IMG/VR virus record: IMGVR_UViG_3300032240_001806
Span: 1-26,679 of that record
Strand: one strand, 5' to 3'
DNA: 26,679 nt
DNA from: a virus
Shown: piece after piece, positions 3,748-22,377 of the stretch
How positions within the stretch are numbered: the first letter of the stretch is position 1
Layout of the letters: the number at the start of each line of letters is the position of its first letter
The notes under the pieces: model-generated
What the model saw: the letters and a program-made list of their open reading frames with translations, nothing else
Databases searched by the model: none
What the model was told of the DNA's origin: nothing
Made by a program: the position numbers and the translations under genes

Positions 3748-4259
3748 AGACCTGTACAAGATGCGGTAAAACATTAAGTCTTGATAGCTTTTATAAAAGA
3801 AAAAAAGCAACTGATGGACTTAATAGTGAATGTAAAAACTGTACATGGGACATAAATAAAACATATAGGAGCACTGAAAATGGTTTTATGACTAATCTTT
3901 TTCTTCGTATAAAATATAGGGTAAATAATTCACAACGTGTTAAAAATCTTCCTGAAAATGAAAAAGATAAACATCGTTGTACTATAACAAAAAAAAGATT
4001 TATAGAACTTTTTGAATTACATAAAAAAAGATACGGATATACTTGTGCATTAACAGGAGTTCCAATAGTACCTAAACCCACCTCTATGAAAGAAACTAAT
4101 AAAAGTAATTCAGTTAGTGTAGATAGATTAGACCCAAATATTGGATATACAGAAGAAAACATTATATTTGTTTCTAATAAAGTTAATCAAATGAAAAGTG
4201 CAGTAACAAAAGAATTATGTATTGCTATTATAAAAGCATATGAAGAAAAGGGTTTATGA
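3744..4259 (+). CDS. HNH endonuclease-like protein with N-terminal zinc finger
   Basis: 171 residues. The N-terminus has two CxxC pairs (CTRC at about 4-7 and CKNC at about 30-33), suggesting a zinc ribbon. The C-terminal half has an HNH-like pattern: CALTG, then VSVDRLDP, GYTEENI and a final VNQMKS. This arrangement is typical of phage HNH nucleases with a Cys-x-x-Thr-Gly and DRxD core. It begins at the ATGA that ends polA, and free-standing HNH genes are often found next to replication genes, where they may act as homing endonucleases. A homing role here is inference; it could equally be a host-DNA or recombination nuclease. Confidence 0.75.
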   Translation: MKTCTRCGKTLSLDSFYKRKKATDGLNSECKNCTWDINKTYRSTENGFMTNLFLRIKYRVNNSQRVKNLPENEKDKHRCTITKKRFIELFELHKKRYGYTCALTGVPIVPKPTSMKETNKSNSVSVDRLDPNIGYTEENIIFVSNKVNQMKSAVTKELCIAIIKAYEEKGL

Positions 4260-4489
4260 ATTTAACAATTTATAAATGGGTAGCCGCAAGTATTAGTATT
4301 GCTTGTTCTATAATACAGGCAAGTGCAATTATTAATTTACAATGGATTGCATTTATTTTTTTAACTATATCTGTTTTAATGTGGACTTATATTTCATATA
4401 TTGAAAAAGATATGGCAAGATTATCACAACAAATAGTATTTATATTACTTAGTTTTGTTGCTATATATAATTGGATTAAATATAAATGA
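4256..4489 (+). CDS. Small three-helix membrane protein
   Basis: 77 residues with three predicted membrane segments: roughly residues 7-25, 30-48 and 59-74. Short polar links and a C-terminal IKYK lie between and after them. It starts at the ATGA overlap with the HNH gene and its stop overlaps the next start the same way. I do not recognise a characterised family; the three-helix layout vaguely resembles very short PnuC-like or holin-like proteins, but no motif supports either. Confidence 0.75.
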   Translation: MNLTIYKWVAASISIACSIIQASAIINLQWIAFIFLTISVLMWTYISYIEKDMARLSQQIVFILLSFVAIYNWIKYK

Positions 4490-4548
4490 TTACTTATTTA
4501 GCTATCAGCACAATGCTTTTAGTAGCAATGGCAATGTTTGGAATATGA
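4486..4548 (+). CDS. 20-residue transmembrane microprotein
   Basis: An ATG at 4486 opens a 21-codon frame (MITYLAIS... ending MAMFGI) that fills the gap between two genes exactly. Its ATGA overlaps the stop of the three-helix protein, and its own stop at 4546-4548 overlaps the next ATG (4545) in another ATGA. The peptide is almost entirely hydrophobic and long enough for one membrane span. Double ATGA coupling and hydrophobicity argue for real translation; length alone does not. Function unknown. Confidence 0.6.
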   Translation: MITYLAISTMLLVAMAMFGI

Positions 4549-4733
4549 TTAGGATAAACCCTCCTATTCCATTAAGTACTCCTAAAGGAGATGCTTATGC
4601 TCATTTCTTAATTGATTACGGTATGGAAGAAGATTTATTATGGGTATGTTTTATAAACAAGACAGGTGAGTGTTGGACATTTAAGAATAGTAAGATAAGA
4701 CTGAAAACTAATTATACATTTAATAGAAAATGA
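4545..4733 (+). CDS. Conserved phage hypothetical protein
   Basis: 62 residues from the ATG at 4545 (MIRINPPIPL...). The frame is open further upstream to 4455, but that extension would run through the two preceding genes, and the internal ATG sits in an ATGA overlap, so I choose it. The protein begins with a proline-rich IRINPPIPL stretch followed by GDAYAHFLIDYG, DLLWVCF and a TGECWTF segment, which looks like a small beta-rich domain of a type I have seen in tailed phages. No function is known. Its stop overlaps the ParB-like gene by ATGA. Confidence 0.8.
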   Translation: MIRINPPIPLSTPKGDAYAHFLIDYGMEEDLLWVCFINKTGECWTFKNSKIRLKTNYTFNRK

Positions 4734-5191
4734 CCGAGACTAAGTTATCAGGAATCACGGCTCACGGGCCTTTGACAGTTATACATCCTCTGTATCAAAT
4801 ATTTCCACATAGATTAGAAGTTATTAAGTTTGAAGATATTATGACTACTCATGTTCCTCATCATGAATTTAAGATACAGATAAGAGAAGATATAAAGAAA
4901 AACGGTCTGTTGTGTCCTTTAGTACTTACTAAAGAAAATGATAAATATGATTTACATAGTGGTAATCATAGATATGCTTTTATTAAAAAACATGCAAATG
5001 CTTCATTATGCTATGTTGCAAGAAATAAAGATGAGTTATTTTTTTTAACTGCTCTTAATAAAATAGTTTGGGAAAAACATAGTAATAAAGAATTAATATC
5101 AAATTTTGAATTTTTATTTGAAGATAAAATGAAAAAGCACACAGACAAGTGTCTTCATCTCCTGACTGAAGGAGTTATAAAAAGTAGATAA
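4730..5191 (+). CDS. ParB/sulfiredoxin-like domain protein
   Basis: 153 residues. After an N-terminal tail there is a ParB N-terminal-like fold: KFEDIMTTHVPH, then an IREDIKKNGLLCPLVL helix-strand, then LHSGNHRYAFIKK, which carries the G-x-H-R signature of ParB/Srx CTPase-nuclease domains. No helix-turn-helix follows, so it is a stand-alone domain like those in many phages and conjugative elements; it could bind nucleotide or act as a nuclease. The N-terminal residues I-T-A-H-G-P are encoded by a copy of the dispersed GC-rich repeat (4755-4770), as if it had been inserted near the 5' end. This is the last gene of the first rightward block. Confidence 0.75.
   Translation: MTETKLSGITAHGPLTVIHPLYQIFPHRLEVIKFEDIMTTHVPHHEFKIQIREDIKKNGLLCPLVLTKENDKYDLHSGNHRYAFIKKHANASLCYVARNKDELFFLTALNKIVWEKHSNKELISNFEFLFEDKMKKHTDKCLHLLTEGVIKSR
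4755..4770 (+). repeat. Heptad repeat copy in the ParB-like gene
   Basis: TCACGGCTCACGGGCC, two CACGGNN units in tandem. The 14-mer TCACGGCTCACGGG is repeated exactly at 9391-9404, and its last 13 bases at 11699-11711. It is strikingly GC-rich against its surroundings and encodes residues about 9-14 of the ParB-like protein. Confidence 0.85.
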
Positions 5192-5199
5192 ATTAAGAA

Positions 5200-5406
5200 C
5201 TAAGAAGCGATATCTAAATCTTCTTCTGCTAGTTCTTGTCTGATATTAAATACAGCTTGTTCTCTTAACTGTCTCTTAATTTCTTTAAGTTCCAGTTCAA
5301 TCTGCATCATATCTATTGTCTCTGATCCTTTTTCTAAAAACATTTGATTCCATTTTGATTCAAGAATCATTTTTTTAGCGACTAGAGACTCATTGTTATG
5401 AAACAT
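5200..5406 (-). CDS. Small hypothetical protein, helical
   Basis: 68 residues if started at the ATG at 5406, which has AGGAA five bases upstream; an earlier ATG at 5418 lies deeper in the preceding gene. The sequence is charged and helical (ELELKEIKRQLREQ), ending EEDLDIAS, and could form a coiled coil. It overlaps the end of the 5396-5587 gene and ends eight bases from the convergent ParB-like gene. Family not recognised. Confidence 0.65.
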   Translation of the reverse strand: MFHNNESLVAKKMILESKWNQMFLEKGSETIDMMQIELELKEIKRQLREQAVFNIRQELAEEDLDIAS

Positions 5407-5587
5407 TAAGTTCCTCATATGTTAGGAAAACTTTAGACGGACTATAAGTTACTTCTTTAGCCCAAGATCCTTTGCCTTCACTAAGCTCTGTTAAGAAGTT
5501 ACGCTTCGCTTCATCATCATCTACTGCATTTACGTCAAGCACTATGCGTTGACCAGCATACCTAGCGGTAAAGCGATACGACTTCAT
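5396..5587 (-). CDS. Small hypothetical protein
   Basis: 63 residues (MKSYRFTARYAG...), possibly a small beta-alpha domain: an RFTARYAG strand, IVLDVNAVDDDEAKRNFL, then a WAKEV strand. Its start lies only a few bases downstream of a good promoter at 5594-5622, so the message may have almost no leader. It heads a two-gene leftward unit that diverges from the RHH regulator gene at 5697, which may control it. Family not recognised. Confidence 0.65.
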   Translation of the reverse strand: MKSYRFTARYAGQRIVLDVNAVDDDEAKRNFLTELSEGKGSWAKEVTYSPSKVFLTYEELNVS

Positions 5588-5593
5588 AAGATA

Positions 5594-5622
5594 ATCTTAT
5601 ATAAGCTAAGACGGTTTGTCAA
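5594..5622 (-). promoter_or_regulatory. Leftward sigma70-type promoter with near-leaderless start
   Basis: On the minus strand TTGACA (5622-5617) is followed after 17 bases by TAAGAT (5599-5594). The ATG of the 63-residue gene begins only 6 bases after the -10 box, so initiation would fall at or next to the start codon. A second TTGACA points the other way at 5629-5634, so the two -35 boxes form an inverted repeat, TGTCAA-N6-TTGACA (5617-5634), which could double as an operator. Confidence 0.6.
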
Positions 5623-5636
5623 TATTAGTTGACATT

Positions 5637-5667
5637 TTGATAGGATAGACTTAACTAAAGATATTAT
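5637..5667 (+). promoter_or_regulatory. Possible rightward promoter for the RHH regulator
   Basis: TTGATA (5637-5642) and TATTAT (5662-5667) are separated by 19 bases, longer than ideal. A perfect TTGACA at 5629 lacks a good -10 at normal spacing. The AGGAG ribosome site at 5686-5690 leads into the ATG at 5697. A rightward promoter is expected in this divergent gap, but its exact position is uncertain. Confidence 0.35.
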
Positions 5668-5696
5668 GATAAAAATTAAACTTTTAGGAGACCTCA

Positions 5697-5894
5697 ATGG
5701 ATATAAGTAAATGGAAAAGCGTTGCAATACGAATTGAAGATTATAAAATATTAAAAAGTTTATGTGGTAAAAAGTTTAGAGCTCCAGCAAGTATGATTTC
5801 TAAATTAGTTCACGATTACTGTAAATTTCAAGCTACAAAAGAAAAAGTAAAATACGAAGTATTTATTAAAAATCTTTTAAATAATAAAAATTAA
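5697..5894 (+). CDS. Ribbon-helix-helix (RHH) DNA-binding protein
   Basis: 65 residues. The first 45 fit an Arc/MetJ/CopG-type RHH: a beta strand KSVAIRI, a helix EDYKILKSLCGKK, a turn with RAPASM, and a second helix ISKLVHDYCKF. RHH proteins dimerise and insert the paired strand into the DNA major groove, usually as repressors. It has a clear AGGAG ribosome site and diverges from two leftward genes across a palindromic -35 region, so autorepression or control of the leftward pair is plausible. It is similar to the 57-residue protein at 9575-9748 (shared SKxKSV...IExYKIL), suggesting a paralogous pair. Confidence 0.7.
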   Translation: MDISKWKSVAIRIEDYKILKSLCGKKFRAPASMISKLVHDYCKFQATKEKVKYEVFIKNLLNNKN

Positions 5895-5900
5895 TGTTGC

Positions 5901-5925
5901 TTTATTAGCTGATTATGCTAATAAA
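5901..5925 (+). other. Perfect 9-bp hairpin before the next start codon
   Basis: TTTATTAGC (5901-5909) pairs perfectly with GCTAATAAA (5917-5925) around a 7-base loop. It lies six bases after the RHH stop and five bases before the ATG at 5931, with no T-run after it. It is more likely a translation-masking or mRNA-stability element than a terminator. Confidence 0.5.
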
Positions 5926-5930
5926 CTAAT

Positions 5931-6218
5931 ATGGATGAAGATCAAGAAGATATACATACAGAATTTTTACATTGTTTAAGTTTTCTTTCTAAAAAATTAA
6001 CTAAATTTCAATACGAACTTGTATGCCAAATTATGTTTAACTTATATATGGGTAAAACGTATGGATTTGATCCTGCTTTTGATGAAAGATTTATGCCTTT
6101 AACTAAAATTTATTGGTATAGCAAAGGTAAAAACAACTTTAATAAAAAAAATATTCCTAAAACTGAGAAAAACGCTAAAATATTTACAGTGTATGATGGT
6201 GGTAAAACTAAAAAATAA
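5931..6218 (+). CDS. Hypothetical protein
   Basis: 95 residues: acidic N-terminus (DEDQEDIHTEF), a helical middle (LSFLSKKLTKFQYELVCQIMFNLYMG) and a basic lysine-rich C-terminus. No Shine-Dalgarno is visible and a hairpin lies immediately upstream of the start, so translation may be controlled or coupled. I do not recognise a family. Confidence 0.6.
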   Translation: MDEDQEDIHTEFLHCLSFLSKKLTKFQYELVCQIMFNLYMGKTYGFDPAFDERFMPLTKIYWYSKGKNNFNKKNIPKTEKNAKIFTVYDGGKTKK

Positions 6219-6234
6219 CATTTACAATGTACGT

Positions 6235-6468
6235 ATGAAACGTACAAAACCTTTAAAACTCAAAGGACGTAGAGATTTATTTAATATTGATAAGCTCCAA
6301 AACATTATAGATGGCAACTTTTCTTCATGGAGTGGACAGGAGATAACAGACTTGCTATTAGCAATACATGATAACTACGATTATTTTGCTAAAAGCAAAC
6401 ATAGTCCCGAGATGACATTATATTATCATGACTTACTCGGTAGACTTGTTAAGACTTATGGGCATTGA
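6235..6468 (+). CDS. Hypothetical protein
   Basis: 77 residues from ATG 6235 (MKRTKPLKLKGRRDLF...). An in-frame ATG at 6193 would overlap the previous gene and add an unlikely N-terminus. The protein has a basic start and a helical core (WSGQEITDLLLAIHDNYDYFAKS) ending in LLGRLVKTYGH. Its stop lies inside the start of the next gene. Function unknown. Confidence 0.6.
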   Translation: MKRTKPLKLKGRRDLFNIDKLQNIIDGNFSSWSGQEITDLLLAIHDNYDYFAKSKHSPEMTLYYHDLLGRLVKTYGH

Positions 6469-6892
6469 ATTTGCTCAAACTATATTAGAAGATAAAGAAA
6501 TAGCTTCTGAACAGAAGTTATGGCGTGGAGTCTTGTGTAATGCAATAGAAGATACAATGCAAGGTTTATCAGATCGCAAAACAAGTATCTATAAAATGGA
6601 AGCACATGAATGGATAATAAACAAGGATGCTGATTTTCAATACGTATGTTATTGGTCAGGGTTTGATCCTGATTTAGTTAAAGAAAAATATTTATTAGCA
6701 GTTAAACGTGGAGATATTAAATTTACAGAAAAACAAATTAATTGGATAAAATATTATAGACATTACGAAGCCTATAAAAAAGAAAAAGATAAAGATAAAC
6801 GAAAAGAATATAAAAAGTTGGCAGATAAGTGGCGAAATATTGTTTTAAGTAGCACCACAGCTTTAGTAAGTTCTTTTTTAATAAACAGTTGA
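6458..6892 (+). CDS. Conserved phage hypothetical protein
   Basis: 144 residues from ATG 6458 (MGIEFAQTILEDKEIAS...), which overlaps the previous gene by 11 bases; an upstream in-frame ATG at 6428 is less likely. Features are a helical LWRGVLCNAIEDTM region, HEWIINKDADFQYVCYWSGFDPDLVKEKYL, and a strongly basic helix (YKKEKDKDKRKEYKK), suggesting nucleic-acid or protein contact. The layout reminds me of an uncharacterised protein common in marine phages, but no function can be assigned. Confidence 0.7.
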   Translation: MGIEFAQTILEDKEIASEQKLWRGVLCNAIEDTMQGLSDRKTSIYKMEAHEWIINKDADFQYVCYWSGFDPDLVKEKYLLAVKRGDIKFTEKQINWIKYYRHYEAYKKEKDKDKRKEYKKLADKWRNIVLSSTTALVSSFLINS

Positions 6893-6937
6893 TCCCATTA
6901 ATTTTATTTGAGATCATTACTGCCGAAAGGAGTATCT

Positions 6938-7075
6938 ATGGCAAAGAAAAAAGCAGAAACAATTCAAGATATCTTAGATAGAATACAAGAAGATATTGAT
7001 AATCTAAGAGAAAAAGTTGAAGAATTAGAATCTGATGTAGAATCTGATTTTGATGACGAAGAAGATGAAGAATAG
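6938..7075 (+). CDS. Acidic coiled-coil small protein
   Basis: 45 residues starting MAKKKAETIQDILD with a strong AAAGGAG ribosome site 8 bases upstream. A short basic start leads into a heptad-like helix (IDNLREKVEELE) and an extremely acidic tail of Asp/Glu. It ends just before a canonical terminator. The acidic coiled coil suggests a partner-binding or DNA-mimic role, but this is speculation. Confidence 0.75.
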   Translation: MAKKKAETIQDILDRIQEDIDNLREKVEELESDVESDFDDEEDEE

Positions 7076-7087
7076 TCTATAAATTAT

Positions 7088-7116
7088 TAGGGGCAGTTAA
7101 TCTGCCCCTATTCTCT
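7088..7116 (+). terminator. Rho-independent terminator
   Basis: Nine perfect base pairs, TAGGGGCAG (7088-7096) with CTGCCCCTA (7102-7110), around a 5-base loop, followed by a pyrimidine-rich TTCTCTCTGTT. It sits 12 bases after the acidic protein's stop and closes the transcription unit starting at the RHH gene. Confidence 0.8.
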
Positions 7117-7133
7117 CTGTTATAAAGCCCTTA

Positions 7134-7162
7134 TTGACATATATCACATTTCACATGATAAT
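7134..7162 (+). promoter_or_regulatory. Strong sigma70-type promoter P1 upstream of hsp20
   Basis: Perfect -35 TTGACA (7134-7139), a 17-base spacer, and -10 GATAAT (7157-7162, five of six consensus bases). This is the best promoter match in the window. Transcription would begin near 7169, where a terminator-like hairpin starts. Confidence 0.7.
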
Positions 7163-7168
7163 TAAATC

Positions 7169-7191
7169 ATAGAGTCTTTACTCTATTTTTT
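7169..7191 (+). terminator. Hairpin plus T-run at the P1 start site (attenuator-like)
   Basis: ATAGAGT (7169-7175) pairs with ACTCTAT (7180-7186) around a CTTT loop and runs into TTTTTCC. The structure looks like a weak intrinsic terminator placed right where P1 transcripts should start, so it could cause early termination, make a very short RNA, or terminate read-through from upstream. Confidence 0.5.
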
Positions 7192-7211
7192 CCTTTCATT
7201 GTTTAAAGTTT

Positions 7212-7235
7212 CCTGCCTCTTGAAAAAGAGGCAGG
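7212..7235 (+). other. Perfect 10-bp inverted repeat with GAAA loop overlapping P2
   Basis: CCTGCCTCTT (7212-7221) pairs perfectly with AAGAGGCAGG (7226-7235) around GAAA. The -35 box of the second promoter lies in the loop and inner stem, so on DNA this may be an operator, and in P1 transcripts a stable GNRA-type tetraloop hairpin. It lacks a convincing T-run. Confidence 0.6.
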
Positions 7236-7249
7236 TTTACCTATATAAT
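7219..7249 (+). promoter_or_regulatory. hsp20 promoter P2, sigma70 and heat-shock sigma-like
   Basis: TTGAAA (7220-7225) and a perfect TATAAT (7244-7249) are 18 bases apart, a good sigma70 match. The same bases can be read as CTTGAA (7219-7224) and CCTATAT (7240-7246) separated by 15 bases, which resembles the alphaproteobacterial RpoH pattern CTTGAA...CYTATNT apart from a slightly short spacer. Either reading would start transcription about 50 bases before the hsp20 ATG. Confidence 0.6.
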
Positions 7250-7308
7250 ACTTAAGACTGCACCATAGGGGTGGGTCAATTAACTTGCTTTTAACAAAGG
7301 AGATAATT

Positions 7309-7731
7309 ATGACAAACATTGATGTTTTCAATAATTTAAGCAAACAATTATTCAACGGCTCAACAAAGTTTTTTGATGAGACTTTTGAAAATATTTTTGA
7401 CACATGGTCAAAAGTACAATCATTTCCATTCTACAACGTAGTTAAATACTCTAAAGGTAAATACGGATTAGAAATCGGTTTAGCTGGATACAATAAAAAA
7501 GATGTTCTTGTAGAAGTTAAAGACGGTATTTTAACTGTTGAAGGAAAAGTAGATGATAAAGAAGTAGATTACGTTCAAAAAGGTTTGGCGTTCAGACAGT
7601 TTTTTAAACAATTTGAACTTGCTAAAGATGTAATAGTGGACGAAGCTGAAATGGAAAATGGACTACTTAAGATTAAACTTGGTTTTAATGATCCAAAAGA
7701 AATCGAAGGCGTTAAAATAGAAGTAAAATAA
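7309..7731 (+). CDS. hsp20: Small heat-shock protein, Hsp20/alpha-crystallin family
   Basis: 140 residues from ATG 7309, chosen for its AAAGGAGA ribosome site; an in-frame ATG at 7285 lacks one. An N-terminal arm (about 1-45, with F/W-rich KFFDETFENIFDTW) precedes an alpha-crystallin domain: YGLEIGLAGYNKKDVLVEVKD, then ILTVEGKV, and the signature AEMENGLLKIKL near the C-terminus. Hsp20 proteins are ATP-independent holdases that keep unfolded proteins soluble. The usual C-terminal I-x-I/V anchor may be the terminal VKIEV. It is a single-gene unit with its own two-promoter leader and is coupled by TAATG to a membrane microprotein. Hsp20 is known from several marine phages. Confidence 0.92.
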   Translation: MTNIDVFNNLSKQLFNGSTKFFDETFENIFDTWSKVQSFPFYNVVKYSKGKYGLEIGLAGYNKKDVLVEVKDGILTVEGKVDDKEVDYVQKGLAFRQFFKQFELAKDVIVDEAEMENGLLKIKLGFNDPKEIEGVKIEVK

Positions 7732-7814
7732 TGAGTGTACTTTTACAATTATCATTGATTTTTGTAATTGGTTTAATTGTAGTTTTATATCTTATTTATA
7801 AAGATAACAAATGA
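7731..7814 (+). CDS. 27-residue transmembrane microprotein
   Basis: The hsp20 stop and this ATG share a base (TAATG). The peptide, MSVLLQLS... ending YLIYKDNK, is one hydrophobic segment of about 21 residues with a basic C-terminal tail, ideal for a single membrane span. A further 13-codon frame begins at 7811 with ATGA overlap (7811-7852, MMPYNSEEF...) and may also be translated, but is too short to judge. Function unknown. Confidence 0.6.
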   Translation: MSVLLQLSLIFVIGLIVVLYLIYKDNK

Positions 7815-7859
7815 TGCCTTATAATTCTGAAGAATTTGATTGGTTAAATTAAATTAAAA

Positions 7860-7890
7860 GAGGGATTAGAACTATGAAAACTAATCCCTC
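7860..7890. terminator. Hairpin between converging units, likely terminator
   Basis: GAGGGATTAG (7860-7869) and CTAATCCCTC (7881-7890) form a perfect 10-bp stem with an 11-base loop. It follows the hsp20/microprotein unit and lies before the end of the leftward operon, so it could serve both directions. The T-run is weak on both sides. Confidence 0.6.
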
Positions 7891-7998
7891 CATTGTTTAT
7901 TATGGTAAGGTATGTTTTATATCGTACCTAAACGATGCCTAACTAAACTAAAAAAGCTAGTAATTGAAATATAGTTATTATTTCCTATTTGTCAAATA

Positions 7999-8067
7999 TT
8001 ATTTTTTTTCAAAAATAACTATTAAAAGCCAAGTAATAAATATTATAATTGCTATAAATTGCATCAT
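7999..8067 (-). CDS. 22-residue transmembrane microprotein
   Basis: Frame from ATG 8067 (a second ATG follows at 8064): MMQFIAIIIF... ending VIFEKK. It is nearly all hydrophobic with a basic end and begins four bases after the stop of the preceding microprotein. It is the last recognisable gene of the leftward operon. About 108 bases from here to the hairpin at 7890 hold no supported gene. Confidence 0.5.
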   Translation of the reverse strand: MMQFIAIIIFITWLLIVIFEKK

Positions 8068-8071
8068 ATTT

Positions 8072-8158
8072 TTATCTTGTTATAATTAAGTATATTACTA
8101 TTAATATGCCTATCGAGACTATTCCCGATAGCCCTGCGTCTATTAATAACTCCATCAT
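8072..8158 (-). CDS. 28-residue transmembrane microprotein
   Basis: MMELLIDAGLSG... ending YLIITR, starting at ATG 8158 (or 8155) in a TAATG overlap with the upstream microprotein. It has one hydrophobic span rich in Ile/Leu and a terminal arginine. Second of three consecutive membrane microproteins in the operon. Confidence 0.55.
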   Translation of the reverse strand: MMELLIDAGLSGIVSIGILIVIYLIITR

Positions 8159-8223
8159 TAGAATATGATAGCTATTATTACAAACATTAATATGCCTTGT
8201 ATGATTTGATCTATTGCTTCCAT
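8158..8223 (-). CDS. 21-residue transmembrane microprotein
   Basis: MEAIDQIIQG... ending IIAIIF: a short amphipathic start and a hydrophobic span. Its ATG overlaps the stop of the 93-residue gene upstream (TAATG), and its stop overlaps the next microprotein's ATG in the same way. This nested TAATG chain is the main argument that these tiny frames are real genes. Confidence 0.55.
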   Translation of the reverse strand: MEAIDQIIQGILMFVIIAIIF

Positions 8224-8504
8224 TAGTTTATTTTATCCTCTTTAGGTTTATCTGGTTTAAATTCAAATAAAGGTTTGATACTCATGCTTTTAGCATTATT
8301 AACTATTACTTGAATTGTTTCATCAAAGGTCTTTTGATCCATTATTCCTCTGTATAATCTTAAGCCTTGTGCAACGAGTGTTGATGCTAGTATCTCGGGG
8401 TCAACTTTATCATCTAACATCTTTTTAACTACAGTTAGCATATCATTATATACTTTTAGTAATTGTGATTGTCTTAGTACGTCCATTTGTTTTTTTTCAG
8501 TCAT
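8223..8504 (-). CDS. Hypothetical helical protein
   Basis: 93 residues from ATG 8504, preceded by an AAAGGAAAA ribosome site; the longer frame to 8588 would run through the upstream gene. Sequence is MTEKKQMDVLRQ, then a helical region with DMLTVVKKMLDDKVDPEILASTLVAQGLRLY and a polar PDKPKEDKIN tail. Overlaps its upstream neighbour by 8 bases. Family not recognised. Confidence 0.65.
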   Translation of the reverse strand: MTEKKQMDVLRQSQLLKVYNDMLTVVKKMLDDKVDPEILASTLVAQGLRLYRGIMDQKTFDETIQVIVNNAKSMSIKPLFEFKPDKPKEDKIN

Positions 8505-13335: not shown

Positions 13336-13503
13336 TTATTTTACCCATTTATCAACGCTGTATTTATTGGCGTTAATGCGTGTTGCTTTATACTTTTTAT
13401 CAAAATTATTTGTTTTATTAAAATTAATAATCTTAATAAATTCCCTTAATACAATTATTAAAAAAATAACAGCAATAATTGTAATTGATATATTATAAGT
13501 CAT
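13336..13503 (-). CDS. 55-residue single-span membrane protein
   Basis: Starts at ATG 13503 in a TAATG overlap with the Cys-rich gene. An N-terminal hydrophobic segment (SITIIAVIFLIIVL) is followed by a basic polar tail with KKYKATRINANK, so it would be anchored with the tail in the cytoplasm. Another example of TAATG-coupled small membrane proteins in this genome. Function unknown. Confidence 0.65.
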   Translation of the reverse strand: MTYNISITIIAVIFLIIVLREFIKIINFNKTNNFDKKYKATRINANKYSVDKWVK

Positions 13504-15185: not shown

Positions 15186-16662
15186 AATTACAAATGTTGA
15201 CCTATTAACCACTGATCAATTACGTGAGAAAGTTGAGCACGCATGGATCCAACATATTAAGCTGTGCCAAGATAATTTTTTATATTTTGTGAAAGAGATG
15301 TGGCCAGACTTCATTTTTCGTAAAGAAACTGAAAGGACCCGATGGGGACACCATCAGATAATTGCTAATGAGTTTACTCGTATAGCAAATGAGAAAAAAG
15401 GGAGGCTCATTATAAACATGCCCCCTAGACATACTAAATCTGAGTTTGCATCTATTTATTTTCCTGCTTGGATTATAGGGAAGTATCCTAAGATGAAATT
15501 AATGCAGGTATCCCACAATGCGGAATTATCAGGAAGATTTGGTAGTAAGGTTCGTAACTTAATTGATTCACCACAGTATAAACAAATCTTTGGTGACGTA
15601 AGGCTCAGAGAAGACTCAAAAGCCAAAGGTCGTTGGGAAACGAATCATGGCGGTGAGTATTATGCTGCGGGGGTCGGCGGAGCTATTACTGGACGAGGTG
15701 CTGATTTATTAATTATTGATGATCCTCATACTGAACAAGACTCATTATCCAATACTGCTATGGAAAGATCTTATGAGTGGTATCTTTCAGGACCCAGACA
15801 GCGTTTACAACCAGGTGGTTCCATATTGTTAGTTATGACTAGATGGGCAGAAGATGATTTGACTGGTAGATTAATTAAGGCTCAAACAGAACCAAAAGCA
15901 GATAAGTGGAAATTAATTTCATTTCCAGCAATTTTAAATTCAGGGAAACCAGTTTGGCCTGAATATTGGAACCTAGAAGAATTAGAAAAGGTAAAAGCTT
16001 CATTAAGCATTAGGAACTGGTCGGCTCAATATATGCAGAATCCTACATCTGAGGAAGGTGCAATTATAAAACGAGAATGGTGGCAGGAATGGAAACATGA
16101 TCATGTACCTAATTTACATCATATCATTCAAAGTTATGATACTGCATTTAGTAAAAAGGAAACTGCCGATTATTCTGCTATTACTACATGGGGTATTTTT
16201 CAACCAAGAGAAGATGGTCCATTTGCTATTATCCTATTAGATGCTGTTAAAGGTAAATATGATTTTCCAGAACTTAAGAACGTAGCTTTTGATGCTTACA
16301 AGTATTGGGAACCTGAAACAGTACTAATTGAAGCCAAAGCTTCAGGACAACCTTTACTACAAGAGTTTAGACGAGCAGGTATTCCAGCTGTAGATTTTGT
16401 TCCTAATAAGGGAAATGATAAGTTTACTAGGGTAAATGCTTGTGCACCTATATTTGAATCAGGCAATGTTTTCTTTCCAAAAGGCGAAAAGTTCGCTACA
16501 GACGTGATTGAGGAGTGCGCCGCATTTCCTCATGGAGAATATGATGACTATGTTGATAGTATGACACAAGCTGTGTTAAGATACCGTCAAGGTAGCTTTA
16601 TTAGTACATATAGGGATTATGTGGAAGAAGACAGGCCACCAAAAGAATATAAATATTATTAG
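15175..16662 (+). CDS. terL: Terminase large subunit
   Basis: ATPase and nuclease that translocates and cuts phage DNA during head packaging, 495 residues. The N-terminal ATPase has the Walker A-like MPPRHTKS (residues 82-89), Walker B LLIIDDPH with D182/D183, and a coupling segment VMTRWAED. The C-terminal RNase H-like nuclease shows D322 (SYDTAFSKKETADYS), E386 (VLIEAKA) and D457/D458/D461 (EYDDYVDS). I start at ATG 15175; a TTG-initiated extension to 15136 has no ribosome site. The Walker A variant with Thr in place of the usual Gly is seen in other marine phages. It heads the long rightward structural operon. Confidence 0.95.
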   Translation: MDPKITNVDLLTTDQLREKVEHAWIQHIKLCQDNFLYFVKEMWPDFIFRKETERTRWGHHQIIANEFTRIANEKKGRLIINMPPRHTKSEFASIYFPAWIIGKYPKMKLMQVSHNAELSGRFGSKVRNLIDSPQYKQIFGDVRLREDSKAKGRWETNHGGEYYAAGVGGAITGRGADLLIIDDPHTEQDSLSNTAMERSYEWYLSGPRQRLQPGGSILLVMTRWAEDDLTGRLIKAQTEPKADKWKLISFPAILNSGKPVWPEYWNLEELEKVKASLSIRNWSAQYMQNPTSEEGAIIKREWWQEWKHDHVPNLHHIIQSYDTAFSKKETADYSAITTWGIFQPREDGPFAIILLDAVKGKYDFPELKNVAFDAYKYWEPETVLIEAKASGQPLLQEFRRAGIPAVDFVPNKGNDKFTRVNACAPIFESGNVFFPKGEKFATDVIEECAAFPHGEYDDYVDSMTQAVLRYRQGSFISTYRDYVEEDRPPKEYKYY

Positions 16663-16670
16663 GAGATATT

Positions 16671-17450
16671 ATGGCAGACGATAGTCAAGATAAGTTTAAT
16701 GAGCCTGGTTATAAAAAAGACGTAGAAAGAATTAAAAAACTTTTTTCAACAGACAATACTCGTCCTGGAATGAGAAAAACTAATATGTCTTACACAAGCC
16801 CCACTAGTACAACAAAATCAGATTCAACAACATCAGAGGATAATACTCGTCCTGGAATGAGAAAAGCTAATATGGCTTATTCAGCAAAAACAGAATCTAC
16901 AACTACACCAAGTTCTGCTTCTAATACAATGTCTAGTTTTGGAAAAACTTTTTCTGATGCAAGAAAAGCAGGTAGTTCGGAATTTGAATATCAAGGTAAA
17001 AAATACGCAGCAGTTACAAAAGATGAAGTTAGTAAATCAGGTTCAAAAAATTTAGCAGAATATTTAAATAAAAATAAATCTACAGCAGTTGCTGATAAAG
17101 GTAAAACAGAACCAGATGATTATTCACAACTTGATTCATCTGTACAAAGAACAGCCACTACACAAGGTAAAACAGAACCAGATGATTATTCACAACTTGA
17201 TTCATCCGTACAAAAAACATCTACAGCAGATTCATCTGATATTTTTTCTACAGCAAAAGATTATGTTAAAAAAACATTTGGTTTAAGAAAAGGTGGAATG
17301 CCAGAAGATGTATCTATGGAAAGAGCTCGTGGCGTGACTCCTGAACAATACGCAGAAGAAAACAAAATACCACATTCTAAAAATAAATACAAAGATGGTG
17401 GAGATATTCATATTACTAAAGGACACGATTACATTAAAGACTTACTATAA
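16671..17450 (+). CDS. Low-complexity repeat protein with GHDYIKDL tail
   Basis: 259 residues, rich in Ser, Thr and Lys. It contains two copies of DNTRPGMRKxNMxY (about 28-72) and two copies of GKTEPDDYSQLDSSVQ (about 144-185). A short folded-looking segment (FEYQGKKYAAVTKDEV...KNLAEYLN) lies between, and the protein ends GGDIHITKGHDYIKDLL. The tail matches those of the proteins at 18453 and 18702. It has a TAGGAGATA ribosome site 8 bases after terL. Position between terL and portal suggests a virion or head-assembly role. No enzymatic motif is visible. Confidence 0.75.
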   Translation: MADDSQDKFNEPGYKKDVERIKKLFSTDNTRPGMRKTNMSYTSPTSTTKSDSTTSEDNTRPGMRKANMAYSAKTESTTTPSSASNTMSSFGKTFSDARKAGSSEFEYQGKKYAAVTKDEVSKSGSKNLAEYLNKNKSTAVADKGKTEPDDYSQLDSSVQRTATTQGKTEPDDYSQLDSSVQKTSTADSSDIFSTAKDYVKKTFGLRKGGMPEDVSMERARGVTPEQYAEENKIPHSKNKYKDGGDIHITKGHDYIKDLL

Positions 17451-17458
17451 GGCACAGC

Positions 17459-18076
17459 ATGAAAAGCGGATCTAAACAAAGTAAGATTAAGACAGTGATG
17501 AAAGAATGGAAAGAAGGAAAGTTAAAATCAGGTACGTCAGATAAAAAAGTGACGAACCCTAAACAAGCGATAGCAATCGCATTATCGGAGGCAGGTATGT
17601 CAAAAAATAAAAAAAGAGGCGGCGGAGCAATTATGGCTGATAAAAAATCTACTATGGGTGAAGCTTTAAAAAAAGGCGGATCTTTATTTAAAGGTAAGGA
17701 AACTTACGGAGAAGAGTTATCAGAAGCTAAGTCGGTTAAGTCTGGAAAAACATCACCATCAGAATTTGTTAAAGGTGAAAAGTCTGAAGGACATAAAGGT
17801 GAAGAAAAGAATTTATCTAAACAAGCAAAAGATATTAAATCTGGAAAAGTATCTCCAGAAGCTTATGCTAAAATGGAAGCAGAAGAACCAGAAACTAAAC
17901 GCGGTGGTGGAGCTATAATGGCATCTAAAAGATCTACTATGGGTGAAGCACTTAGAGGTGGCGGAGCTATAATGGCATCTAAAAGATCTACTATGGGTGA
18001 AGCTTTATCAGAAGGCGGAGAAGTTAAAGGTACTGGAGTTGCTATAAAAGGTTTTAGACCAGCTAAAATGTCATAA
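17459..18076 (+). CDS. DUF6496-like repeat protein
   Basis: 205 residues. The first 50 (KIKTVMKEWKEGKLKSG...NPKQAIAIALSEAG) match the DUF6496 pattern found in many phage and bacterial proteins. Three copies of GGGAIMAxKxSTMGEAL follow (about 53, 148 and 166), the last two being near-identical at the DNA level. The end GGEVKGTGVAIKGFRPAKMS is another GG-E-V...KG tail like its neighbours. It is highly basic, which would suit packaging with DNA. Function unknown. Confidence 0.75.
   Translation: MKSGSKQSKIKTVMKEWKEGKLKSGTSDKKVTNPKQAIAIALSEAGMSKNKKRGGGAIMADKKSTMGEALKKGGSLFKGKETYGEELSEAKSVKSGKTSPSEFVKGEKSEGHKGEEKNLSKQAKDIKSGKVSPEAYAKMEAEEPETKRGGGAIMASKRSTMGEALRGGGAIMASKRSTMGEALSEGGEVKGTGVAIKGFRPAKMS
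17909..18003 (+). repeat. Tandem 54-base repeat in the DUF6496-like gene
   Basis: A 41-base block (17909-17949) is repeated exactly at 17963-18003, giving an 18-residue period. A more diverged copy begins near 17624. The identity of the last two copies points to recent duplication. Confidence 0.8.
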
Positions 18077-18080
18077 TACT

Positions 18081-18443
18081 ATGTCTGAGGATAAGAAAAA
18101 AAAATCAGACTATAATATTGATGATGCTACAAGAGATGTAGGTCCTGTCTATACAGATTCTAAAGGAAAAAAATCACAAATCCCTTCTAAAGAAATGTAT
18201 GATAAAATGCATCCATCTGATGAACAAGTAAAAAATATAAAAGCTCTTGAAGATAGAGATAGAATTGAATCTGAAATAGCTAATGTAGATCAATTAGGAA
18301 ATGTAATATATCCAAATAAAACCTACGCAATGGGTGGTTTAACTGAACAACCTCATTTAGGATATATACCAAGAACTAAAGGCGGATCAATTTTAGCTAA
18401 AGGAAATAAATTAGCTAAACACAAACCAACTAAATTATACTAG
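18081..18443 (+). CDS. Small protein with AKHxPTKLY tail
   Basis: 120 residues, polar and basic (MSEDKKKKSDYNIDD...), with a central IPSKEMYDKMHPSDEQVKNI and a GNVIYPNKTYAMGGL segment. It ends GGSILAKGNKLAKHKPTKLY, nearly the same tail as the protein at 18945 (GGEVLAKGNKIAKHRPTKLY). This tail is a second tail type in the cluster. Role unknown, probably virion-associated. Confidence 0.75.
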   Translation: MSEDKKKKSDYNIDDATRDVGPVYTDSKGKKSQIPSKEMYDKMHPSDEQVKNIKALEDRDRIESEIANVDQLGNVIYPNKTYAMGGLTEQPHLGYIPRTKGGSILAKGNKLAKHKPTKLY

Positions 18444-18452
18444 GAGATAATT

Positions 18453-18692
18453 ATGAGTATTATAGATGATATTATGGATATACCAGGAGAAATTTTTGGT
18501 AGTAAAAAAAGTTCAAAAACAGTTGCTCCAGAAGGACAACCGTTAGGAACAGTGACTGATCCTAAAGTAATAGCTAATCAACTATATGGTGCAGATAATA
18601 CAAATATTATTCAATCTAAGGCTACTTTAAGTCATGGCGGAGAAGTAGAAATTATTAAAGGTCACGATTATATTAAAGATTTAATTAAATAG
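18453..18692 (+). CDS. Small protein with GHDYIKDLIK tail, copy A
   Basis: 79 residues. A hydrophobic start (MSIIDDIMDIPGEIFGSK) and polar spacer precede HGGEVEIIKGHDYIKDLIK. Both the tail and the junction TAGGAGATAA that joins it to the next gene are repeated in the next cassette. It may be a decoration or internal head protein; this is inference from position. Confidence 0.75.
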   Translation: MSIIDDIMDIPGEIFGSKKSSKTVAPEGQPLGTVTDPKVIANQLYGADNTNIIQSKATLSHGGEVEIIKGHDYIKDLIK

Positions 18693-18701
18693 GAGATAAA
18701 T

Positions 18702-18935
18702 ATGGGAATAGAAGATTTTATTTTAGGAGGAGCAGGATTAGGATTACTTTATGATAAATTTACTAAAGATAAAAAAAGTGATACTCAAGTAGCAAATACA
18801 ACAACCAATACTACATCCCCTTCTCTTTTAGAAAATGAAAATGTTAATGTTATTAATCCAAAAGTTCGATTAAAACATGGCGGAGAAGTAGAAGTTCTTA
18901 AGGGACATGACTATATTAAAGATTTAATTAAGTAG
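18702..18935 (+). CDS. Small protein with GHDYIKDLIK tail, copy B
   Basis: 77 residues, built like its upstream neighbour: a hydrophobic start with GGAGLGLLYDKFTKDKK, a Thr/Asn-rich linker, and HGGEVEVLKGHDYIKDLIK. The DNA of the tail (from CATGGCGGAGAAGTAGAA at 18876) is close to that of copy A (18633), while the N-terminal halves differ. This suggests tail duplication or recombination rather than whole-gene copying. Confidence 0.75.
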   Translation: MGIEDFILGGAGLGLLYDKFTKDKKSDTQVANTTTNTTSPSLLENENVNVINPKVRLKHGGEVEVLKGHDYIKDLIK

Positions 18936-18944
18936 GAGATAAAA

Positions 18945-19394
18945 ATGTTTCTTATAGAACAATTACTTAATTCAGGAATAATAAAAAAAATGAGCCCTAA
19001 TTCAAGTCCAGTTACTAATAACGATTTGAATAATTCACCAAGGCCCGTGGACATTAATCAACCTAGAGCTGTTCCATTTTCTGGACAAGGCGGAACTGGA
19101 TCACCAGCAGATATTAATCAGCCAAGAACTGCTCAATTTGCTGGAGCAGATATTAATTCTAATACATATGGAAAAAACGAAGCTGAAGATTTTTTAAAAA
19201 AAATATTTATTGCAAAAAAAGGCGGAGAGATTAGTAAAGGCAAAAATGGTGGTGAAACTATTAAAAAAAAATTTGGTCATGAAGGAGCTATTGATCCTAA
19301 AAAAGCTCAAGTAACTAAACTTCTTAAAAGTGGTGGAGAAGTTTTAGCAAAAGGCAATAAAATAGCAAAACATAGACCAACCAAACTATATTAA
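18945..19394 (+). CDS. Small protein with AKHxPTKLY tail and DINQPR repeats
   Basis: 149 residues. Two DINQPRxxxFxG repeats (about 32 and 54) lie in a Gly/Pro-rich linker, then EAEDFLKKIFIAKKGGEISKG, and the tail GGEVLAKGNKIAKHRPTKLY shared with the 18081 protein. It carries extra internal GGE segments, as if several tail modules had been strung together. Precedes the portal gene. Function unknown. Confidence 0.75.
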   Translation: MFLIEQLLNSGIIKKMSPNSSPVTNNDLNNSPRPVDINQPRAVPFSGQGGTGSPADINQPRTAQFAGADINSNTYGKNEAEDFLKKIFIAKKGGEISKGKNGGETIKKKFGHEGAIDPKKAQVTKLLKSGGEVLAKGNKIAKHRPTKLY

Positions 19395-21843: not shown

Positions 21844-21955
21844 AGAAAAATTAAGAGCAGCAATGCCAGGCAAAAGATTTGGGCCACCTCCTTTAAAAGG
21901 ACCAGCATCACAAGGTCTTAAAAAAGGAAAGATTGTTAGAAAGAAGAAAAAATAA
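21830..21955 (+). CDS. 41-residue basic peptide
   Basis: MYQSKEKLRAAMPGKRFGPP..., ending KKGKIVRKKKK. It overlaps the portal end by 14 bases and the holin start by TAATG. It is strongly basic and Pro/Gly-rich with no hydrophobic segment, so it could bind DNA or the portal. Too short for the usual gene callers. I recognise the MPGKRFGPPP style from marine phages but know no function. Confidence 0.65.
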   Translation: MYQSKEKLRAAMPGKRFGPPPLKGPASQGLKKGKIVRKKKK

Positions 21956-22377
21956 TGTTTCCAATGTTAAGTGCTATTGCTCCAATAGCTAAGATACTTT
22001 TTAATACAATTGATAAAGCAGTAGAAGATAAAGATCTTGCTAATAAATTAAAAGCAGATTTACAAGCACAATTGTTACAATCTAATACAGAAGAACTAAA
22101 AGCGGCAGCTTCTATTATTGAAGCAGAAGCTAAATCAGGCTGGTATGTTTCTGGATGGAGGCCTACGCTTATGTACGTATTAATTTTTATATTAGTATGG
22201 AATTATATTTTAGGACCTATCTCATTAATTATATTTAAATCACAAATTACATTTTCACTACCTGGCGATGTATGGACTTTACTGACTGTTGGGGTTGGCG
22301 GTTATACGCTAGGCCGTTCTGGAGAGTCTATTGCAAGAACAATGGCTAGTAAACCACAGGATTCAGATAAAAGCTAA
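21955..22377 (+). CDS. Holin, GTA_holin_3TM-like
   Basis: 140 residues. An N-terminal amphipathic region (PMLSAIAPIAKILFNTIDKA) precedes a charged helix (LKADLQAQLLQSNTEELKAAASIIEAEAKSG). The WYVSGWRPTLMYVLIFILVWNYIL segment starts the membrane part, a second span is near LGPISLIIF, and a third covers WTLLTVGVGGYTLG. The SGWRP sequence before the first span is typical of the three-span holin family first described from gene transfer agents. It would form membrane lesions for lysis, but no endolysin is in the window. Confidence 0.8.
   Translation: MFPMLSAIAPIAKILFNTIDKAVEDKDLANKLKADLQAQLLQSNTEELKAAASIIEAEAKSGWYVSGWRPTLMYVLIFILVWNYILGPISLIIFKSQITFSLPGDVWTLLTVGVGGYTLGRSGESIARTMASKPQDSDKS

Follow-up and report, generated by a model that had tools for sequence, protein, structure and literature searches.

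MgrB, AcrZ, KdpF and CydX are host-encoded proteins consisting of a single short helix, mostly 29-50 residues long, that carry no enzyme domain and bind a larger membrane protein, the partners being known. IbsC, TisB and DinQ are peptides of type I toxin systems. MgrB has been described as a small bacterial membrane regulator (PMC8404706), TimP as a type I toxin peptide (PMC7667032), and the small open reading frames (ORFs) of microbiomes have been surveyed in the GMSC catalogue (PMC11364881). Here we report on very short hydrophobic ORFs (microORFs) in 26,679 nucleotides of viral DNA (IMG/VR record IMGVR_UViG_3300032240_001806, positions 1 to 26,679; hereafter the window). An earlier note on this DNA had listed five such frames, termed here A, B, C, M20 and E, as a hidden set of membrane microproteins held by stop/start overlaps. 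Comparison with related sequences indicated that A, B and C would be genuine single-pass inner-membrane microproteins of this phage, M20 probably one and E possibly one. The frames are as follows (dN/dS, ratio of nonsynonymous to synonymous change; TM, transmembrane):

7731-7814, plus strand: family A, a 27-residue single-TM microprotein (MSVLLQLSLIFVIGLIVVLYLIYKDNK), TAATG overlap with the hsp20 stop codon; 17 other loci; dN/dS about 0.48, p=0.002
8158-8223, minus strand: family B, a 21-residue single-TM microprotein (MEAIDQIIQGILMFVIIAIIF), TAATG on the stop codon of the gene at 8223-8504; nine relatives; dN/dS about 0.35, p=0.008
8072-8158, minus strand: family C, a 28-residue single-TM microprotein (MMELLIDAGLSGIVSIGILIVIYLIITR), TAATG on the stop codon of B; ten relatives; dN/dS about 0.61, p=0.0005
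4486-4548, plus strand: M20, a 20-residue hydrophobic frame (MITYLAISTMLLVAMAMFGI), ATGA at both ends
7999-8067, minus strand: E, a 22-residue hydrophobic frame (MMQFIAIIIFITWLLIVIFEKK), candidate gene only, 4 nucleotides after C; placement unlikely by chance

All five were found at the positions and with the joins claimed for them, and the hydropathy of the best 15 residues, at least 2.2 in every frame, agreed with the single membrane span that had been proposed (2.97-3.07 in the window for A, B and C, a composition-based value from which the helix is predicted). The basic end described as frequent is present in the frames at 7731 (..YKDNK), 8072 (..ITR) and 7999 (..EKK) and absent from those at 8158 and 4486. 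The window was scanned for ATG-initiated ORFs of 15-40 residues with a hydropathy of at least 2.1 and a start -4 to +8 nucleotides from the stop codon of a gene on the same strand, chains being followed. After 54 gene stops the scan returned exactly these five and no others, and 400 dinucleotide-preserving shuffles yielded a mean of 0.07 frames, a maximum of 1 and never a chain of 2. The hydropathy threshold was chosen after the five had become known, which biases the test somewhat in their favour; the margin is large nonetheless, and five observed against 0.07 expected bears out the earlier statement that chance is a poor explanation. As a yardstick, one gene-abutting hydrophobic frame was found in 667 genes of 78 diverse phage loci, against five in 47 genes of the window. 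By the same scan four relatives had three to four such frames apiece, and the isolated Pelagibacter phage HTVC023P had two different ones (the loci of one genome overlap slightly). In HTVC023P (L055/L177) two ATGA-joined hydrophobic microORFs follow gp26 (15305-16003; MMHLIAFIFRAAVFYPLTVILILSLLFI) and gp45 (29263-29919). Both are unannotated in its record, so that to call such frames hidden from ordinary gene finding is fair.

Homologues were located through neighbouring genes, the microproteins themselves being too short to serve as queries in locus searches. For A, B and C they were found in about 9-17 relatives, in which frame, near-constant length, hydrophobicity and close coupling are kept at a dN/dS of about 0.35-0.6. 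The comparison of synonymous and nonsynonymous change that had been proposed as a check revealed frame-specific purifying selection on all three, and by this comparative evidence it is nearly certain that A, B and C are protein-coding. In A, B, C and M20 the second codon positions had changed least, the pattern that selection for hydrophobicity would produce, and the overlap geometry was retained while the microORF sequences drifted across relatives. No microprotein scored above the cut-off in Pfam, and A, B and C had no match in PHROGs. The Pfam hits of E to HRG (0.0098) and of A to FeoB_associated (0.33) were far under the curated cut-offs and were taken as reflecting composition.

Families B and C follow one another on the stop codon of a conserved protein:

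8223-8504, minus strand: a 93-residue predicted three-helix protein, conserved in six relatives, AlphaFold predicted local distance difference test (pLDDT) 76; upstream coupling partner of B, C and E

No PDB match to the model of this protein and no significant viral match were found. B occupies the same place in its nine relatives (18-21 residues, such as MEQIIDGILAFILLFLIF) and C stands next after it in ten (28-36 residues, such as MIELISDMGFGWFIASIVICVLFYALMKK), the B-C order being kept and tightly packed; the join is TAATG in the window and in L045, and one or two spacer bases are present in the other relatives. Four independent pairs showed no second-position change in B, and 121 substitutions in C created no stop codon where 8.4 were expected. 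The modest dN/dS of both fits a helix kept for its hydrophobicity more than for its sequence. The sign by which spurious frames were to be recognised, frames broken beside intact neighbours, was absent from all 10-11 examined loci carrying the B-C region, and A is intact in 18 of the 19 places having it, L003 being the exception.

Family A lies on the stop codon of a small heat-shock gene and is followed by a further short peptide, family F, which the earlier note had overlooked:

7309-7731, plus strand: hsp20, small heat-shock protein (PF00011 8e-11, phrog_432 1e-28), with its own strong Shine-Dalgarno sequence AAAGGAG; upstream coupling partner of A and F
7811-7852, plus strand: family F, a 13-residue soluble peptide (MMPYNSEEFDWLN), ATGA overlap with A; M-x-PYNEEE in 46 of 47 hsp20 loci

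Homologues of hsp20 with 75-91% identity were found in 45 viral contigs, and 47 loci (those of the first search, three from another search and the window) were readable past the stop codon. TAATG is present at the hsp20 stop in all 47, and in 18, the window included, its ATG opens an A-type hydrophobic peptide of 24-27 residues. Two types of A exist (MSIPLQL... and MTTITIF...) with a common end such as IYNNYK, that is, a TM segment followed by Y-x-N-Y/N-K. In eight independent pairs 38% of 56 changes were synonymous, against 23% if changes were random, and A is less constrained than hsp20 itself (dN/dS 0.22). On the hsp20 tree the distribution of A needs 12 changes, at least six of them on well-supported branches, which argues that A is readily gained and lost.

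The F peptides read M-x-PYN-[E/D/S]-E-E followed by Trp or Phe, are 13-24 residues long and stand directly after A (ATGA or TAATG) or, where A is absent, on the hsp20 stop itself. Selection on the frame was clear (dN/dS about 0.53, and 0.38 over codons 2-9; p<0.0005 for the frame), which places F among the shortest phage peptides for which selection at the protein level can be demonstrated by comparison. The motif was detected by a DNA scan in 41 viral contigs, where it usually follows hsp20 and sometimes unrelated genes; it occurs without hsp20, for example, at L223:4203-4271 and L232:1359-1421, after a 35-residue ORF. The pattern had no match in 85,000 bacterial genomes, and tblastn gave none in isolate phages, a 22-residue query being a weak one. 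In one phage group the second half of F falls within a terminator hairpin that faces a converging helicase gene, so part of the conservation of the region may be at the RNA level. The possibility that F is merely this hairpin (EEW-KFIST lies in it at some loci) or a TATAAT element (which PYN reads) was rejected as a full explanation: synonymous variation is seen at its Tyr and Asn codons, and codons 2-9 are under the constraint given above. As a separate observation, the hsp20-(A)-F block recurs in an unlike phage lineage (L189, L190, L191 and L192), where, by our reading of the sequences, an S-adenosylmethionine-decarboxylase-like gene precedes it and a helicase gene converges on it.

M20 is enclosed by two genes:

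4256-4489, plus strand: a 77-residue multi-span membrane protein, upstream of M20; 12 relatives
4545-4733, plus strand: a 62-residue conserved phage protein (MIRINPP), downstream of M20; 109 relatives in viral contigs

A homologue of M20 was found once more, in L056/L188 (MITYLVASTVVLVVMAMFGI), where the ATGA overlap with the MIRINPP gene is kept and a 46-codon ORF is inserted upstream; L060 has the 46-codon ORF and no M20. Most of 80 MIRINPP loci carry an unrelated basic 46-residue protein upstream and no TM peptide. The single informative pair gave a dN/dS of about 0.40 (p=0.03), and from these sequences we consider M20 a quite probable gene. As for E, the sister locus L045, a close match at B and at the promoter downstream, is without the whole E stretch, and in L025, L034 and L038 the slot is taken by an unrelated hydrophobic TM microORF (MLHVIFYTAIVVFFLYLMIARSRF), preceded by AGGAGG in L038. 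With a placement unlikely by chance and a slot filled otherwise in relatives, the balance inclines slightly towards E being a gene, although an unproven one.

Two further membrane families, absent from the window, were identified in relatives and had likewise been missed, so that the five frames are not the complete set:

L157:5384-5473 and L014:5461-5550: family D, a Trp-rich single-TM microprotein (MDIIFTTEFWLIIGWASFLIWLTWLGRNN), convergent with F; dN/dS about 0.30
L157:6836-6928 and L169:6833-6925: family G, a single-TM microprotein (MNIKKYERNIWLLVIIVAWLLLIVSIIVWK), elsewhere on the minus strand

Presence is patchy: A shows its at least six supported gains or losses, M20 is in L056 and not in L060, and the E slot is refilled in three loci. 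As read from the sequences, this is a phage group whose stop-codon slots are filled by differing single-helix peptides, and the membrane frames behave as exchangeable cassettes. The comparisons also suggest that the hsp20-(A)-F block has been exchanged between unlike phages. Membrane microproteins of phages are already known as a kind; the limited open-access literature searched contained neither the organisation as stop-codon cassettes nor the hsp20-A-F arrangement.

The large terminase (TerL) of HTVC023P is 78% identical to that of the window over 97%, and that of HTVC027P 60%. Helicase, DNA polymerase A, endonuclease, a p6428-type gene and small terminase stand in an order common to the window and HTVC023P, and by its close terminase and this gene order the window is an uncultured HTVC023P-type pelagiphage, nearest to HTVC023P, its host presumably SAR11, an abundant bacterium of the ocean. 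The hsp20 gene is present in the window and absent from HTVC023P. Elsewhere in the window, a run of small genes ahead of the portal gene (16671-19394) has recurring tails at the C terminus (..GHDYIKDLIK in three, ..AKGNKxAKHxPTKLY in two), which looks like the reuse of a single tail, and a 55-residue protein at 13336-13503 on the minus strand has an N-terminal membrane helix and a tail (YKATRINANKYSVDKW) conserved in G001 and G002.

The microproteins are encoded on the stop codon of hsp20, of the 93-residue helical protein, of the 77-residue membrane protein or of another microORF. Because no strong Shine-Dalgarno sequence was seen before A, C, E or M20, we infer that they are made by termination-reinitiation, which would tie their amount to that of the upstream protein. 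Each would enter the inner membrane as a lone helix, probably with the N terminus out and the C terminus in where the C end is basic, and may pack there against transporters, proteases or respiratory enzymes of the host membrane as an accessory modulator in host takeover, acting like the small bacterial regulators MgrB, AcrZ and KdpF. Any one of them would be dispensable by itself and open to gain, loss or replacement as a cassette. In HTVC027P the stretch from the replication genes to terminase has minus-strand genes, among them three that are expressed early or early-to-middle, and the function of all its early genes is unknown (PMC12753301); these minus-strand genes lie in the region matching B and C, which fits a part in host takeover. 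We therefore put forward, tentatively, translationally coupled accessory membrane peptides that may modulate host inner-membrane proteins as the best reading of the locus. If so, unannotated membrane peptides under selection would offer small, well-defined candidates, simple to synthesise, for a part in the takeover of a streamlined bacterium, and searching stop codons for hydrophobic microORFs would be an inexpensive route to similar genes elsewhere.

Some points weigh against this reading. In L003 both A and F are lost, A being frameshifted and the next peptide, F, having a stop codon, beside an intact hsp20. The timing of expression is borrowed from HTVC027P, a rather distant isolate as judged from its TerL. 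No homologue of E was found by tblastn in relatives or when 2.9 million viral contigs were scanned once with degenerate DNA, a scan that assumed the residues of the window and that distant homologues would escape; by these searches the proposed gene at 7999-8067 has no conserved frame.

That the microproteins tune lysis, as the earlier note had suggested, perhaps as antiholin-like or pinholin-like helices that time a holin, suits their size and hydrophobicity, and phages often encode lysis helpers. The window, however, has an ordinary holin:

21955-22377: GTA_holin_3TM (PF11351), a canonical three-TM holin; Pfam 6e-15, PHROG holin 4e-26

This gene sits in the late block, about 14 kb from the microORFs and in another transcription unit, and A, B and C adjoin hsp20 and small genes of unknown function, not an endolysin. 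Nor did any microprotein match a lysis family, holins and antiholins included, in Pfam, or A, B or C in PHROGs. The separate holin and the distance from the late block weaken the suggestion and make a primary role in lysis unlikely. Exclusion of superinfection by peptides that would reach the inner membrane at an early stage of infection, also raised in the earlier note, is about equally unlikely: small membrane proteins are a usual form for such functions, and rapid drift with cassette exchange fits competition among phages, but no resemblance to known exclusion proteins was seen and two to four differing families per genome would be required. The further suggestion of that note, inhibition of host membrane enzymes, is likewise a guess.

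The microproteins might instead be type I toxin-like peptides of the Ibs/TisB/TimP kind under the control of an adjacent small RNA, given that they are lone hydrophobic helices of 18-29 residues and that the B-C cluster is followed directly by a conserved small-RNA gene having its own promoter. This gene, overlooked in the earlier note, stands between the two microORF clusters:

7968-7995, minus strand: sigma70-type promoter TTGACA-16-TATATT, 11 of 12 consensus positions, kept in 10 of 11 loci
7852-7967, minus strand: putative structured small RNA of about 110 nucleotides, transcription inferred; three helices (two small hairpins and a terminator hairpin at the end)

Ten aligned sequences of this RNA had 99.5% of cells paired and five pairs changed on both sides, a signal abolished by sliding the structure one base; the double changes mostly separate two sequence groups and so reflect few events. 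The RNA has no match to an Rfam family. Its model matched only this locus, in five of five relatives having it (including G001, G002, L186 and L187), with no match in HTVC023P, HTVC027P or the other hsp20 lineage. The RNA gene is on the same strand as B and C, downstream and not antisense, and antisense pairing with the frames was not found. Scored as duplexes with gene starts, its single-stranded part had no microORF start among the best sites of the window, and no target was consistent across three genomes. Host-toxic peptides of a lytic phage would, besides, need no antitoxin; a toxin role is improbable.

Alternatively, hsp20, the optional A and the near-universal F could be a dedicated chaperone-membrane module, in which A anchors Hsp20 at the inner membrane or recruits it there, with F as a short client, adaptor or other partner; the module would pass as one unit between unlike marine phages. 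F follows hsp20 in nearly every locus, always coupled and in two genome contexts, and the hsp20 genes of isolate phages (Mosig, HTVC008M, HTVC115P, HTVC103P and cyanophages) have neither A nor F alongside. Against this, most of the present hsp20 loci lack A, F is found without hsp20 in L223 and L232, and F often overlaps a terminator hairpin; we regard such a module as no less improbable than the toxins. Finally, that the frames are no genes and are hydrophobic by chance in T-rich sequence, with TAATG and ATGA arising by chance or another cause, is hardly credible: although they are very short, AT-rich DNA favours Ile, Leu and Phe codons and A is broken in L003, dinucleotide-matched shuffles do not reproduce them and the synonymous excess in frame, seen for A, B, C and M20, contradicts it for A, B and C; E alone might still be such a frame.

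Read as accessory modulators of host membrane proteins, the phage microproteins resemble MgrB, AcrZ, KdpF and CydX in being predicted single short helices with no enzyme domain, and differ in being mostly shorter and phage-encoded; the likeness is one of kind, sequences having been compared through Pfam and PHROGs. With the type I toxins IbsC, TisB, DinQ and TimP they share a hydrophobic peptide of 18-38 residues and a small-RNA gene nearby, but the phage RNA has the same orientation as the frames and lacks complementarity to them, and the microORFs are coupled to other genes, with several unlike families in a row. GTA_holin_3TM is likewise a phage-encoded membrane protein, whereas the microproteins have one predicted helix and no holin match, and the three-TM holin of the window lies elsewhere. 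Like catalogued phage and microbiome small ORFs such as those of GMSC, they are short genes that annotation overlooks, a membrane helix being common among such genes; the difference is that coupling, cassette exchange and selection were examined here family by family.

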